DNA of 64,000 nucleotides from Sipunculus nudus (Eukaryota > Annelida > Sipuncula > Golfingiida > Sipunculidae): NCBI GenBank assembly GCA_026874595.1, contig CM049311.1, forward strand, positions 65,203,953 to 65,267,952, read 5' to 3'. Made by a program: the position numbers and the translations under genes. The notes beneath the pieces are model-generated. The model was not told the DNA's origin. It did no database searches and saw only the letters and a list, made by a program, of their open reading frames with translations. Of the stretch, positions 27,326-62,372 are shown piece after piece; the stretch's first letter is position 1; each line of letters opens with the position of its first letter.

Positions 27326-27875
27326 CTGTGCCATCCACGAGGACTGTCATTCAAGTCACAGCGAGACCAGCGCAAGTCTAGCTTCCATTCCTTCATCATT
27401 ACAAAGGAGGATGGCACCAAATCTTACGGTGCCGCATATACCTTTTACGAAAAGGTGACATGCCCGTCCATCTGTGATGCCATGCAGACTTTACAGCACA
27501 TGCACATGGCTGAGCTGAGTAATGTACAGTCACGGACATTATATTCTCATCTGGGTACCACAGTGTTTGACCGCAGTCCTCGCACCCACCGACGCACGAC
27601 AGAAGAACACCCAAACCACCAGCGAACTTACAGTTCCCATAAAGACACACTTTACGTCAGCAAGTGCGTGTGTGTGCTGTCACAGCTGCCCTTGCTTCAT
27701 GTGTTCAGGAAGTTTTTACAGTTGCTGGTGGATATGGTCTGTGCTGGGGAGGTACCAGAACTTCCCTGGGAGAGCTACATCTACAATATCATACACGAAG
27801 TGCCATTACCTCCACAGGGCCGCAGCATGAAGTTCTCTACCTTCAAACAGCAGCATGTAATATGTCAGAGACCAG
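27326..27875 (+). CDS. DENND5: DENND5-like Rab exchange factor, exon A (uDENN to cDENN)
   Basis: This is the first visible exon of a DENN-domain guanine-nucleotide exchange factor. In animals DENND5A/B (Rab6IP1) activate Rab39 and bind Rab6 on Golgi/endosome membranes; that role is known for the family and inferred here. The exon starts in phase 0 after TTTTTTTTCAG and encodes LCHPRGLSFKSQ, FHSFIITKEDGTKSYGAAYT and AMQTLQHMHMAE, typical uDENN text, then DTLYVSKCVCVLS and WESYIYNIIHEVPLPPQGRS, the start of cDENN. It ends CAG|GTAAAC in phase 1. It has 183 codons with no stop. Compared with human DENND5A (recalled) the order is identical, but the linker around SPRTHRRTTEEH differs. The part before LCHP, with the start codon, must be on earlier exons. 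Confidence 0.93.
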
Positions 27876-27984
27876 GTAAACCCAGTTTACTTCACTACTT
27901 TGTGTTATTATTGTGTATGTATGCTTTTTATATTCTTATGTGCGGTAAAATTGAATGAAAACAAATATATATAAGTATAGACTT

Positions 27985-36433: not shown

Positions 36434-36449
36434 ATGTATTATGTTACAG

Positions 36450-36575
36450 GTAACAATGAACTGCCACTATTAGAGTACCCCCTGCGGAGTATGTTTGACC
36501 TGCTTGGCGTGGACAATGTGCTCAGCATTTATGTTTGTGTCATGCTGGAACACCAGGTCCTCCTTTACTCTCAAG
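36450..36575 (+). CDS. DENND5: DENND5-like exon B (cDENN)
   Basis: It joins exon A in phase (G+GT, Gly) and reads NNELPLLEYPLRSMFDLLGV then DNVLSIYVCVMLEHQVLLYS. This matches the cDENN segment TNELPLFDFP..ELLGVENV of human DENND5A (recalled), including the hydrophobic helix before LLYSQ. The acceptor is ATGTTACAG, weak in pyrimidines, just after an AT microsatellite. The donor is AAG|GTAAGT in phase 1. It is a short exon of 126 bp. The intron that follows is 17.7 kb. Confidence 0.93.
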
Positions 36576-54323: not shown

Positions 54324-54508
54324 ATTGTCAGCGGTTGATGCTGGTGGCTGAAGGAATTACGTCGTTAATGTTTCCTTTCACCTGGCAGCACGTATATGTG
54401 CCGATCTTGCCAGCCTCTCTTCTTCATTTTCTTGATGCTCCAGTGCCCTACATCATGGGCCTTCATCACACCGCAGATGGACAGAAGCTCAAGGAGCATT
54501 GTGGACAG
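54324..54508 (+). CDS. DENND5: DENND5-like exon C (cDENN to dDENN)
   Basis: It joins exon B in phase (G+AT, Asp) and reads [20 protein letters not shown] then [40 protein letters not shown]. This is the most conserved stretch of DENND5 and of DENN proteins in general; [18 protein letters not shown] is shared with human DENND5A (recalled). It forms the core of the cDENN fold that contacts the Rab. It starts after TTTCTCTTCAG and ends CAG|GTATCA in phase 0. The 61 whole codons are free of stops, and the conservation says the protein is under constraint. Confidence 0.95.
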
Positions 54509-55118
54509 GTATCAACTCATTCAAATTGTTATTGTCCCATTTATCAGCTGCAAATGCAGGCTTTACCCATTCATCATGTATCCAATTTCATAATGTGATC
54601 ACTGGTAATATTGATATCAATCAAATGTGTCCGAACATTTCTAGATAACATACACACTCACACAAAACATGTACAATTGTGCCTCCTCTTTATTAGTGAT
54701 TTCCACTATGTCAATTGAGCAGTACATGTTAAATGTGTAGTAACTTTATATTTCCATTTCAATTATTATATATGTTAACATGCAGATTTCATGTAGATTG
54801 ATATGCAAAGTTTCTGAAATGTCAGGTTTGCAATATCTCTTAATTTTAAAGCCCCAATTTGTTTTTATTTATAGATAAACAATTGTCAAAAGATATATTG
54901 CAGTTGTTGGGGTAGGATATTTATAAATATGCAGATACAAACTCTTCTTATTGCCTTGAGAAGACAAAAAAAAGAAATAATGTACCACAACAAATATGTA
55001 TCTTTTAATTTTTGATCACAGGGCAGCATCTATGCATTGTTTAAGTCCAATATGATTTGTTGACATTTAATATTACTCGAGGGAGAAACTTTTAAAAGTT
55101 TGCATTATTTTTAAGTAC
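54509..55118 (+). other. Intron between exons C and D, 5' part
   Basis: AT-rich with no feature of note; it leads into the splice-site repeat array. Confidence 0.6.
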
Positions 55119-55422
55119 CAGACATTGAATATCATCCATTAACAGTAAACATGCGTTGTTTCAGGGTGCCCTATGCTTTCAGACATTAAATATCATCCAT
55201 TAACACTATACATTCGTTGTTTCAGGGTACAGTGTGCTTTCATACATTGAATATCAGCCATTTACACAATGCACATGCGTTGTTTCAGGGTACGGTGTGC
55301 TTTCAGGAATATCAGCCATTACCACCATTAACATGCGTTGCTTCAGGGTACGATGTGCTTTCATACATTGAATATCAGCCATTCACACCATACATACATT
55401 GTTTCAGGGTACTGTGTGCTTT
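55119..55422 (+). repeat. Tandem ~61-bp repeat containing duplicated 3' splice sites
   Basis: Five units are present. Four decoys place TTGTTTCAG (or TTGCTTCAG) and GGTNC..TGTGCTTT-like exon text at exon-start positions 55165, 55226, 55289 and 55347; the fifth is the real acceptor at 55408. Spacings are 61, 63, 58 and 61, total 243. Each unit includes CATACATTGAATATCAGCCA-like text, the pyrimidine tract, AG and the first ~15 bases of the exon. See the matching finding. Confidence 0.9.
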
Positions 55423-56191
55423 GTGAACATAGATGAAGGTTCTGTAGAGACTCCGGAGGACATCCCCGTATTACCATACAAAGAGGAACTCCACCTGGAC
55501 CTGATACAGCAGCTGAAGCGGACAGGTGATCCAAGTGACAAATCACGGCTATCCCAGGACACACTATACCAGCTAAAACGTATATCCACAGCCAGTACAG
55601 ACTCAGGGATGAGCAGCGGGGGTGCTTCCACCTCCAGCTCTATGTGCAATATATCCAGCAAACTCGAGGTGCTCCAACAGCAAAGTGAGGCATTGGCTAA
55701 AATTGCTGCGATCGCCAAGAAAACAGGCGTGATCAGTTCACTAGAGGATATAAGCAGCAGCTTCTTGGAGGAGAATACTAGTCAAGGTCTCCGCGGAGCA
55801 CAGTATGATCACGATACTCAAGAACTGCTTGTTGGTTTAACAATCCGGGAGGTTTTCTTGCATTATATCCTCCAGATTTTCAGCAATTATGAATCATTCG
55901 TTATCATGCCCAATCAGGATATGGAGACGTGGATCTCAAATCGAGAATCAATGCAGACTTTTGACAAGGCAGCGTTTTTGGGTGACCACCCGGAGGCTCA
56001 TTTGCCTTTCTTGGCTGCATTTATTGAGACTCAAATGTTCACTACATACATAGACAATAAAATTGTATCACAATGGGAAGACTGTGACCCAAACCTCAAG
56101 CTGTTTGAGGCACGCCTGAAAAAGTTTCAGGAACACTCAGACGGGATGGCTAGTGTCCGCTTCTCTAAAACTTATGGTGCTATGGAATCAA
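55408..56191 (+). CDS. DENND5: DENND5-like exon D (dDENN and linker)
   Basis: It starts in phase 0 with GTVCFVNIDEGSVETPEDIP, matching the LCFVDVDN..ELPEDLP segment of human DENND5A (recalled). A Ser/Thr-rich linker follows (ISTASTDSGMSSGGASTSSS, about residues 62-81 of the exon), longer and less conserved than in vertebrates. The dDENN part then includes LTIREVFLHYILQIFSNYES, NRESMQTFDKAAFLGDHPE and LPFLAAFIETQMFTTYIDNK, close to the family's [23 protein letters not shown]. The donor is A|GTAAGT in phase 1. The exon has 261 codons plus one base. This exon's own 5' edge is repeated four times upstream. Confidence 0.93.
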
Positions 56192-59430: not shown

Positions 59431-60640
59431 CACTACCTTGTGGAGGTATAAAAGTGAAATTTTTTTTGGCATTGAGCACCAGATATTGCTTTGAATCACT
59501 TGGGATATTCCAATATAACAATACTAACCTTGTTTCAAAGTAAAGTGTGATAACCAGCCACAGAATAATGTTGTAGTTACTGTATAATGAGGACATGGTA
59601 TTTTGCAACAAAGTCATACATTTAGTATTCATATACATTTTAGTTTTATCATATTTTTCCTCACTGTAACTGTGTCCTCCGGAAGAATACATTAAGGGTA
59701 GATGTGCGTTTCTTTTTAAAAATCTACTGTAAGCTTTTACAATTCAGATATACATAAATGTTCAAACTGCAAAGTTTTAATTAGAGTATTGATGGCATAA
59801 ACTTGCACATTATTTACACAGTCATCTGCTGAGCTGCGTTGGCCTAAGGCCACTTACAATAATTAACTTCAATGGGATTTCACACTTTTATGCCTGATTG
59901 CCTATCCTCATACACCTAATTGTTATTTGGCTTCATCTGTGGTGTATTCATCAATATAGGTCTTGGTTGATTGCTATGTATTGACTATGAGACCCACCAG
60001 CCAAGGAATTTGCTTCAGCTACTGTGGACTTCACCATAAGTAGCCATGGCTGGACTTTCCCTATTGAATACACCAGTTCAATACATTCTTTGAACAAGTG
60101 TTCTCAAAGAAAATCAGTGCATGTACTTGGGGTCAACCACTGGGGAGTTTACTGCCACCTACATAACTGTACATTCCCCAGATATAACCATTCCAGAGCT
60201 GCAAAGTGCTAATGAAATCTTAGAAGTACTTGCAACAGACATCCCTTTCCAGTAAGCCTGCTGTATTCTGTACTATGGACTTTATGTGGCAACCTCCAGG
60301 GTATTATTATTTACCATAAACTGTGCACCATGGACCCTCTGTTATGATCAACCGTTATGAACTCTGGAGTTACAGTGTTATTCTACTCTTAATACATTCC
60401 CATACTATCCTGTACTAATATCATTTGTGTCCCATGGTTAATTTTGTAATTATTGTATAGTAAAGACAGGGTGCATTGTACCATACTACTTTACAAGTTC
60501 AGAGGTTTTTTGTAATATAGACTGTGTGGATCTGTGTACCTAATTACCAGGATTGTTCAAAAGTTCAGAGGTATACTACACCCTAAGATTTCTTTAAAAG
60601 TCCAGAGTTATGCTTTTCTATGAAGTTGCTTTATAAATCC
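59431..60640. other. Intron sequence, no recognised feature
   Basis: No exon, RNA gene or strong repeat was seen. Confidence 0.45.
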
Positions 60641-60644
60641 AGAG

Positions 60645-61070
60645 ATACCCTGCTCCATTGTCTCTTTACATGTCCCAGAGATCCCTAATCTTTGAACTTT
60701 TTAACAAGTCCCAGAGATTCTCTGCCCAGTCGACTCTTTGCGTGTCCCAGAGAACCCTACCCCATGAACTCTTTACAAGTCTCAGAGATACCCTGGCTCT
60801 TTACGAGTCCGGGAGATACCCTGCTCAATGGACTCTTTACAAGTCTCAGAGATACCCTGCCCCATGAACTCTTTACAAGTCCCAGAGATACCCTGCCGCA
60901 TGAACTCTTTACAAGTCTCAGAGATACCCTGCCCCATGAACTCTTTACAAGTCCCAGAGATTCCCTGCCCCATGGAATCTTTATGAGTCCCAGAGATACC
61001 CTGCCCCATGACTCTTTACAAGTCCCAGAGATACCTTGCTCCCAATGACTCTTTACAAGTCAAGATATAC
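60645..61070 (+). repeat. ~36-bp minisatellite (array 1)
   Basis: About eleven units built on CTCTTTACAAGTCCCAGAGA plus TACCCTGCCCCATGAA. The 36-bp period keeps reading frames open (a peptide such as LFTSPRDTLPHE repeats), but no splice or start context supports a protein. Confidence 0.88.
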
Positions 61071-62112: not shown

Positions 62113-62372
62113 TAACACTTCACAAGTCCAGAGATACCATGCCCTGTGGACTCTTTTTACAAGTCCAGAGATACCATGCCCTGTGGACTCTTTTGACAAG
62201 TCCAGAGATACCATGCCCTGTGGACTCTTTTTACAAGTCCAGAGATACCATGCCCTGTGGACTCTTTTTACAAGTCCCAGAGATACTATGCCCTGTGGAC
62301 TCTTTTCACAAGTCCCAGAGATACCATGCCCTGTGGACTCTTTTTACAAGTCCCAGAGATACCCTACATCAT
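62113..62372 (+). repeat. ~37-bp minisatellite (array 2)
   Basis: About seven units of ACAAGTCCAGAGATACCATG plus CCCTGTGGACTCTTTTT. The core ACAAGTCC(C)AGAGATACC is shared with array 1 about 1.1 kb away. Confidence 0.88.

Follow-up and report, generated by a model that had tools for sequence, protein, structure and literature searches.

A tandem array of candidate acceptors over an intron-exon boundary of a DENN-domain gene in Sipunculus nudus

In a DENN-domain gene of Sipunculus nudus, five tandem units repeat an intron end together with the opening 15 bases of the following exon; the last unit carries the real acceptor and the other four carry decoy acceptors that are as strong as the real one. 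Arrays of this kind recur at other exons of the same genome. Judged by its sequence, the array would belong to a class that has already been described, the mirages of lancelets, and its frequency in the host genome would then be the interesting part. We consider it quite probable that the array is a mirage-type minisatellite, that is, a near-neutral tandem duplication that is tolerated since the last copy remains joined to the exon. Where splice sites are nearly identical and set apart chiefly by position, the question arises of what makes the spliceosome choose the last one.

Host gene and anatomy of the array

Coordinates below are those of the window, the whole stretch of 64,000 nucleotides that was analysed. 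The features on which the argument rests are the following, with acceptor scores from a matrix described in the next section.

54324 to 54508, forward strand: exon C, upstream exon of the DENN-domain gene (DENN match over the joined exons; acceptor TTCTCTTCAG; donor CAG/GTATCAAC)
54509 to 55407, forward strand: intron of 899 bp, read directly from the sequence, with its donor at 54508/54509 and its last 289 bases within the array
55119 to 55422, forward strand: tandem array of five units (TRF score 369; units read directly)
55119 to 55179, forward strand: unit 1, decoy acceptor, exon-like start 55165, predicted stop TAA 55201, score 7.82
55180 to 55240, forward strand: unit 2, decoy acceptor, exon-like start 55226, predicted stop TGA 55424, score 10.02
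55241 to 55303, forward strand: unit 3, decoy acceptor, exon-like start 55289, predicted stop TGA 55424, score 8.28
55304 to 55361, forward strand: unit 4, decoy acceptor, exon-like start 55347, predicted stop TGA 55434, score 8.48
55362 to 55422, forward strand: unit 5, real acceptor, exon start 55408 and first 15 exon bases, score 7.57
55408 to 56191, forward strand: exon D, end of the DENN and dDENN region (Pfam and protein alignment; GTAAGT donor after 56191)

When exons C and D were joined, Pfam returned DENN (3.7e-21) and dDENN (2.2e-14), and the protein aligned with PDB chain 6ekk_A (DENND1A; E 3.6e-12) across the exon join. Since this alignment is continuous over the join with only short gaps, it is evidence that the real exon starts at 55408. 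The window contains two further matches to the DENN model, 27653-27889 and 36449-36574. The name DENND5, given to the gene in an earlier note on this DNA, is plausible but stays unconfirmed, as none of the seven RUN domain matches listed genome-wide falls in the window, a missing match that does not show absence of the domain.

The same note had described an array of about 61 bp with exon starts at 55165, 55226, 55289, 55347 and 55408, and both the TRF hit (period 61, 5.0 copies, 81% matches) and the exact coordinates confirm it. When 54509-55500 was resampled 300 times by a first-order Markov model, no array with a period of at least 9 scored above 51 (compare with 369 observed). Along the array the units measure 61, 61, 63, 58 and 61 bp, 304 bp in total, and are 80-92% identical to one another. 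In each, a candidate branch point and a pyrimidine run lead up to CAG, which is followed by a copy of exon D's first 15 bases; in unit 5 these are the exon's own bases and form the end of the unit. In all five units TTTCAG or CTTCAG stands before the exon-like start and a diverged copy of GGTACTGTGTGCTTT after it, and a yUnAy motif is found about 23 to 25 bases 5' of the start (16 in unit 4). The CAG is intact in all four decoys, which by sequence are complete acceptors. Two related arrays, with periods of 36 and 37 bp, lie further 3' in the window, at 60639-61061 and 62122-62363.

Two other descriptions of the structure were discarded. The array sequence has a single match in its own 1.43-Gb assembly (in a search that passes over very common words), and a dispersed element was rejected on this ground. 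NAGNAG tandem acceptors have two acceptor AGs three bases apart, and the acceptors of this array are 58-63 bases apart.

Strength, reading frames and conservation of the decoys

The acceptor matrix was built on 89 of 100 control exons of the same genome, some of whose kept assignments may be wrong; the other 11 were left out because their automatic acceptor assignment was weak, distant or missing. Among the control exons the real acceptor ranks 41 of 89, and every decoy outscores it (compare 7.82-10.02 with 7.57). The scores thus support the view that the true acceptor is not singled out by site strength: should splicing go to the last acceptor, its strength would not account for the choice. 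We then pooled six acceptor arrays, this one and the five listed further below, using a matrix of 87 control exons and scores rounded to 0.1. A decoy equalled or exceeded its real site in 29 of 36 comparisons (4/4 for the DENN gene, 5/7 for L078, 4/4 for L102, 4/4 for L106, 12/15 for L118 and 0/2 for L155); one L118 decoy was left unscored because it lay too close to the end of its stretch.

The decoy starts precede the real one by 243, 182, 119 and 61 bases, and their frames relative to exon D are those given in the earlier note, with 55165 in frame, 55226 and 55289 sharing a second frame and 55347 in the third. Use of the first three decoys had been said to truncate the product; this is so, and the decoy at 55347 also meets a stop, so that all four do. 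The random inserts that remained open numbered 0 of 2000 for each of the lengths 182, 119 and 61 bases and 21 of 2000 for 243 bases. Because random inserts of these lengths nearly always truncate, truncation is uninformative on function: an alternative site giving an early stop, one mark of unproductive splicing coupled to nonsense-mediated decay, is seen in 4/4 decoys, yet it is expected by chance.

If the decoys served a function, their splice signals might be conserved. In the DENN-gene array the rate of change is 0.031 in the last eight intron bases, as compared with 0.141 in the upstream part and 0.146 in the exon part. Over the six pooled arrays, the AG pair shows 2 changes against 7.0 expected (P 0.048), and intron-end blocks of 3, 6, 8 and 10 bases give P values of 0.068, 0.245, 0.114 and 0.132, respectively; these values come from an automatic unit walk that found only four decoys in L106, where TRF reports 7.2 copies, and from which one spurious L155 unit was removed by hand. 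The single L078 decoy without AG at the aligned position has an AG two bases further on. The low rate at the intron end of the DENN-gene array and in the AG pair could mean weak retention of working decoys. On these sequences the decoy splice signals appear at most weakly conserved, a result that we count neither for nor against selection, with a lean towards neutrality.

These data bear on the proposal of the earlier note that the array is a switch to nonsense-mediated decay. Under such a regulated off-switch, decoy use would lead to an early stop and to destruction of the transcript, and the share of decoy use would set the level of the DENN protein. Decoys that all stop early, match the real site in strength, have a yUnAy motif upstream and keep their AG pairs (4/4) are in its favour. 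However, the early stops are those expected of random inserts of these lengths, the splice signals are at best marginally retained (P 0.048 for the AG pair, 0.07-0.24 for the longer blocks), and lancelet mirages are reported, in the excerpts available of two papers, as regularly spliced (PMC3087553, PMC3902484). We found no support for the switch and regard it as improbable.

Likeness to mirages and a possible origin

The DENN-gene array resembles the lancelet mirages in being a tandem repeat over an intron-exon boundary with splice signals in its units, and the authentic junction lies in its end unit (unit 5). According to the available portions of the original report, mirages are minisatellite-like duplications of intron-exon boundaries, found in the globin genes BflGb6 and BflGb9 and in Adh3, with units 81-100% alike, many of which bear splice signals, and with regular splicing suggested by RT-PCR (PMC3087553). 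The BflGb6 unit combines the 3' end of an intron with the 5' part of the next exon and is present 6 and 3 times in two haplotypes; units measure 150-160 bp in BflGb6 and 10-72 bp in Adh3 (PMC3087553, same portions), as compared with 61 bp here. Boundary repeats of lancelets are also described, in what is available of a second paper, in PGBD5, where repeats of 60 and 108 bp lie at splice sites, and in troponin C (PMC3902484). The two cases differ in host, Sipunculus nudus as against lancelets, and in evidence, normal splicing and unequal haplotype lengths being reported for the latter and genome sequence being used here. In humans, internal tandem repeats at exon-intron boundaries can alter splicing or form new introns, as the accessible part of that study states; they were found through transcripts and variable paralogues, unlike our array, which was found in a genome sequence (PMC2812944). 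The titles and abstracts of the literature searched, a coverage outside which most subscription papers fall, report no such arrays in bivalves, and the available text of two mollusc papers (PMC3862624 and PMC4732748) yielded no boundary repeats.

We propose the following course of events for the DENN gene. A stretch of about 61 bp, composed of the last 46 intron bases and the first 15 exon bases, was multiplied in tandem, as the sequence of the units shows. Because the extra copies sit on the intron side, the last copy would have remained joined to the exon, leaving the protein intact provided that splicing goes to the last acceptor. If it does, position beside the exon, through exon enhancers or exon definition, would decide for the last site, with some leakage into transcripts with early stops. 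The array is probably near-neutral. It has many counterparts in this genome, in which, as the sampling below shows, minisatellites beside exons abound. The anatomy of the array, its frames, the strength of the decoys and the recurrence of such arrays are shown by sequence. That the last acceptor is the one used, that its position decides and that the array is near-neutral is our inference, and we think the array most likely tolerated and not useful.

Turri is said to have described in 1995 a minisatellite of the human gene 6-16 (IFI6) that supplies multiple splice donors, and Zhuo, in 2007, reportedly described introns arising from tandem arrays. The former is also a minisatellite with repeated splice sites, which are donors there (by title) and acceptors here.

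A unit with both AG and GT could also become a small exon or intron, and the array would then act as an intron nursery, as proposed for lancelet mirages. The units read CAG/GGTACNG, with GT close behind AG; the model is set out in the excerpted lancelet paper (PMC3087553), and the human boundary repeats are tied to new introns (PMC2812944, in part). Against this, the GTAC of the units matches the donor consensus only in part, and we regard the intron nursery, too, as improbable. An assembly error is very improbable: tandem arrays can be misassembled, as one lancelet mirage was in a draft genome (PMC3087553, excerpt), but the units here differ by 8-20% and the array is just 304 bp long within a contig of 88.9 Mb.

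Boundary-spanning arrays elsewhere in the genome

We sampled 226 exons, chosen by domain match irrespective of repeats, and examined the acceptor side of all 226 and the donor side of 126. They represent 45 of 75 myosin matches, 97 of 126 kinesin, 30 of 63 chaperonin, 8 of 11 DENN, 20 of 55 UCH and 26 of 37 RhoGEF matches. Five of the 226 acceptors (95% interval 0.7-5.1%) and five of the 126 donors (1.3-9.0%) lie within boundary-spanning arrays, with exon boundaries set by eye from conserved protein and splice consensus rather than from transcripts:

Acceptor side, L078: 61 bp, 8.6 copies
Acceptor side, L102: 60 bp, 4.2 copies
Acceptor side, L106: 72 bp, 7.2 copies
Acceptor side, L118 (G000:C12:42581590-42582780): 31 bp, 16.8 copies, kinesin exon
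Acceptor side, L155: 43 bp, 2.4 copies
Donor side, L126: 52 bp, 10.8 copies
Donor side, L177: 35 bp, 2.0 copies
Donor side, L191 (G000:C4:55197040-55198850, oriented 869-1432): 47 bp, 11.9 copies, UCH exon
Donor side, L196: 29 bp, 30.7 copies
Donor side, L210: 159 bp, 9.3 copies, with a 57-bp subunit

L155 and L177 are weak cases, with fewer than 10 exonic bases and fewer than 3 copies. When at least 10 exonic bases and at least 4 copies were required, these two dropped out, leaving 4/226 acceptors (0.5-4.5%) and 4/126 donors (0.9-7.9%). All acceptor cases are kinesin exons (5/97, compared with 0/129 for other exons, Fisher P 0.014), and the acceptor rate may therefore not apply to every gene; the donor cases are spread over kinesin, myosin, UCH (two) and RhoGEF exons. 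Taken together, these counts suggest that similar boundary arrays are not rare in the genome.

In L118, the kinesin exon is preceded by 16 decoys whose acceptors resemble CTTACAG/GCATTGTTCC, and the AG is intact in 16/16. In L191, at an exon of a ubiquitin protease, each copy includes about 42 exonic bases; the real donor is GTAAGT and most decoys in the copies printed are GCAAGT or ACAAGT. L056 (G000:C13:59088060-59088710), a degenerate array of 17-bp units in which numerous CTACAG sites resemble acceptors, stops shortly 5' of a kinesin exon; it was rejected as boundary-spanning because it ends before the true acceptor. L131, which ends at the boundary, L184, which is 16 bases short of it, and L201, which lies about 7 bases past the donor, were likewise rejected.

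A wider claim is that boundary-spanning arrays are pervasive genome-wide, at acceptors and donors alike, and that the spliceosome is therefore faced, at a great number of exons, with several equal sites of which it has to choose the one closest to the exon body by position alone. We hold this to be possible, with the balance tipped slightly towards doubt. If it were true, such arrays would amount to an experiment of nature, run across the whole genome, on how splice sites are chosen, and they would keep supplying new introns and unproductive transcripts. Should a few percent of exon boundaries bear such strings, ordinary RNA-seq could answer the question of site choice exon by exon, and it could be tested whether minisatellites at boundaries contribute to the gain of introns or the loss of transcripts outside lancelets.

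We also compared array edges with exon boundaries, for 34 arrays of period at least 20 and score at least 100 whose exon-side edge lies at most 500 bases from a boundary. The edge falls 3-49 bases inside the exon in 10/34 arrays, as compared with 3.1 expected for an even spread over 550 bases (P 0.0007), and between -30 and +50 in 17/34, as compared with 4.9 (P 1e-6); when the two L180 arrays, for which the exon edge is doubtful, are set aside, the latter count is 15/32 (P 1e-5). None of the 34 edges is deeper than 49 bases in the exon. Windows and thresholds were picked post hoc, the list of arrays was compiled manually and several of the distances, measured from the edge of the domain match, are approximate; L056 (distance 92 bases), L131, L184 and L201 were counted as intronic. 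Array edges thus seem to pile up at exon boundaries, which we take as a lead, and the pile-up fits arrays that grow until they meet an exon or boundaries that are prone to duplicate.

Among the chaperonin matches, nine intronless reading frames of 547 amino acids and equal score were found on the small G000 contigs C61, C62, C66, C72, C73, C75, C89 (twice) and C99. They look like bacterial GroEL, and the assembly seems to include bacterial contigs.
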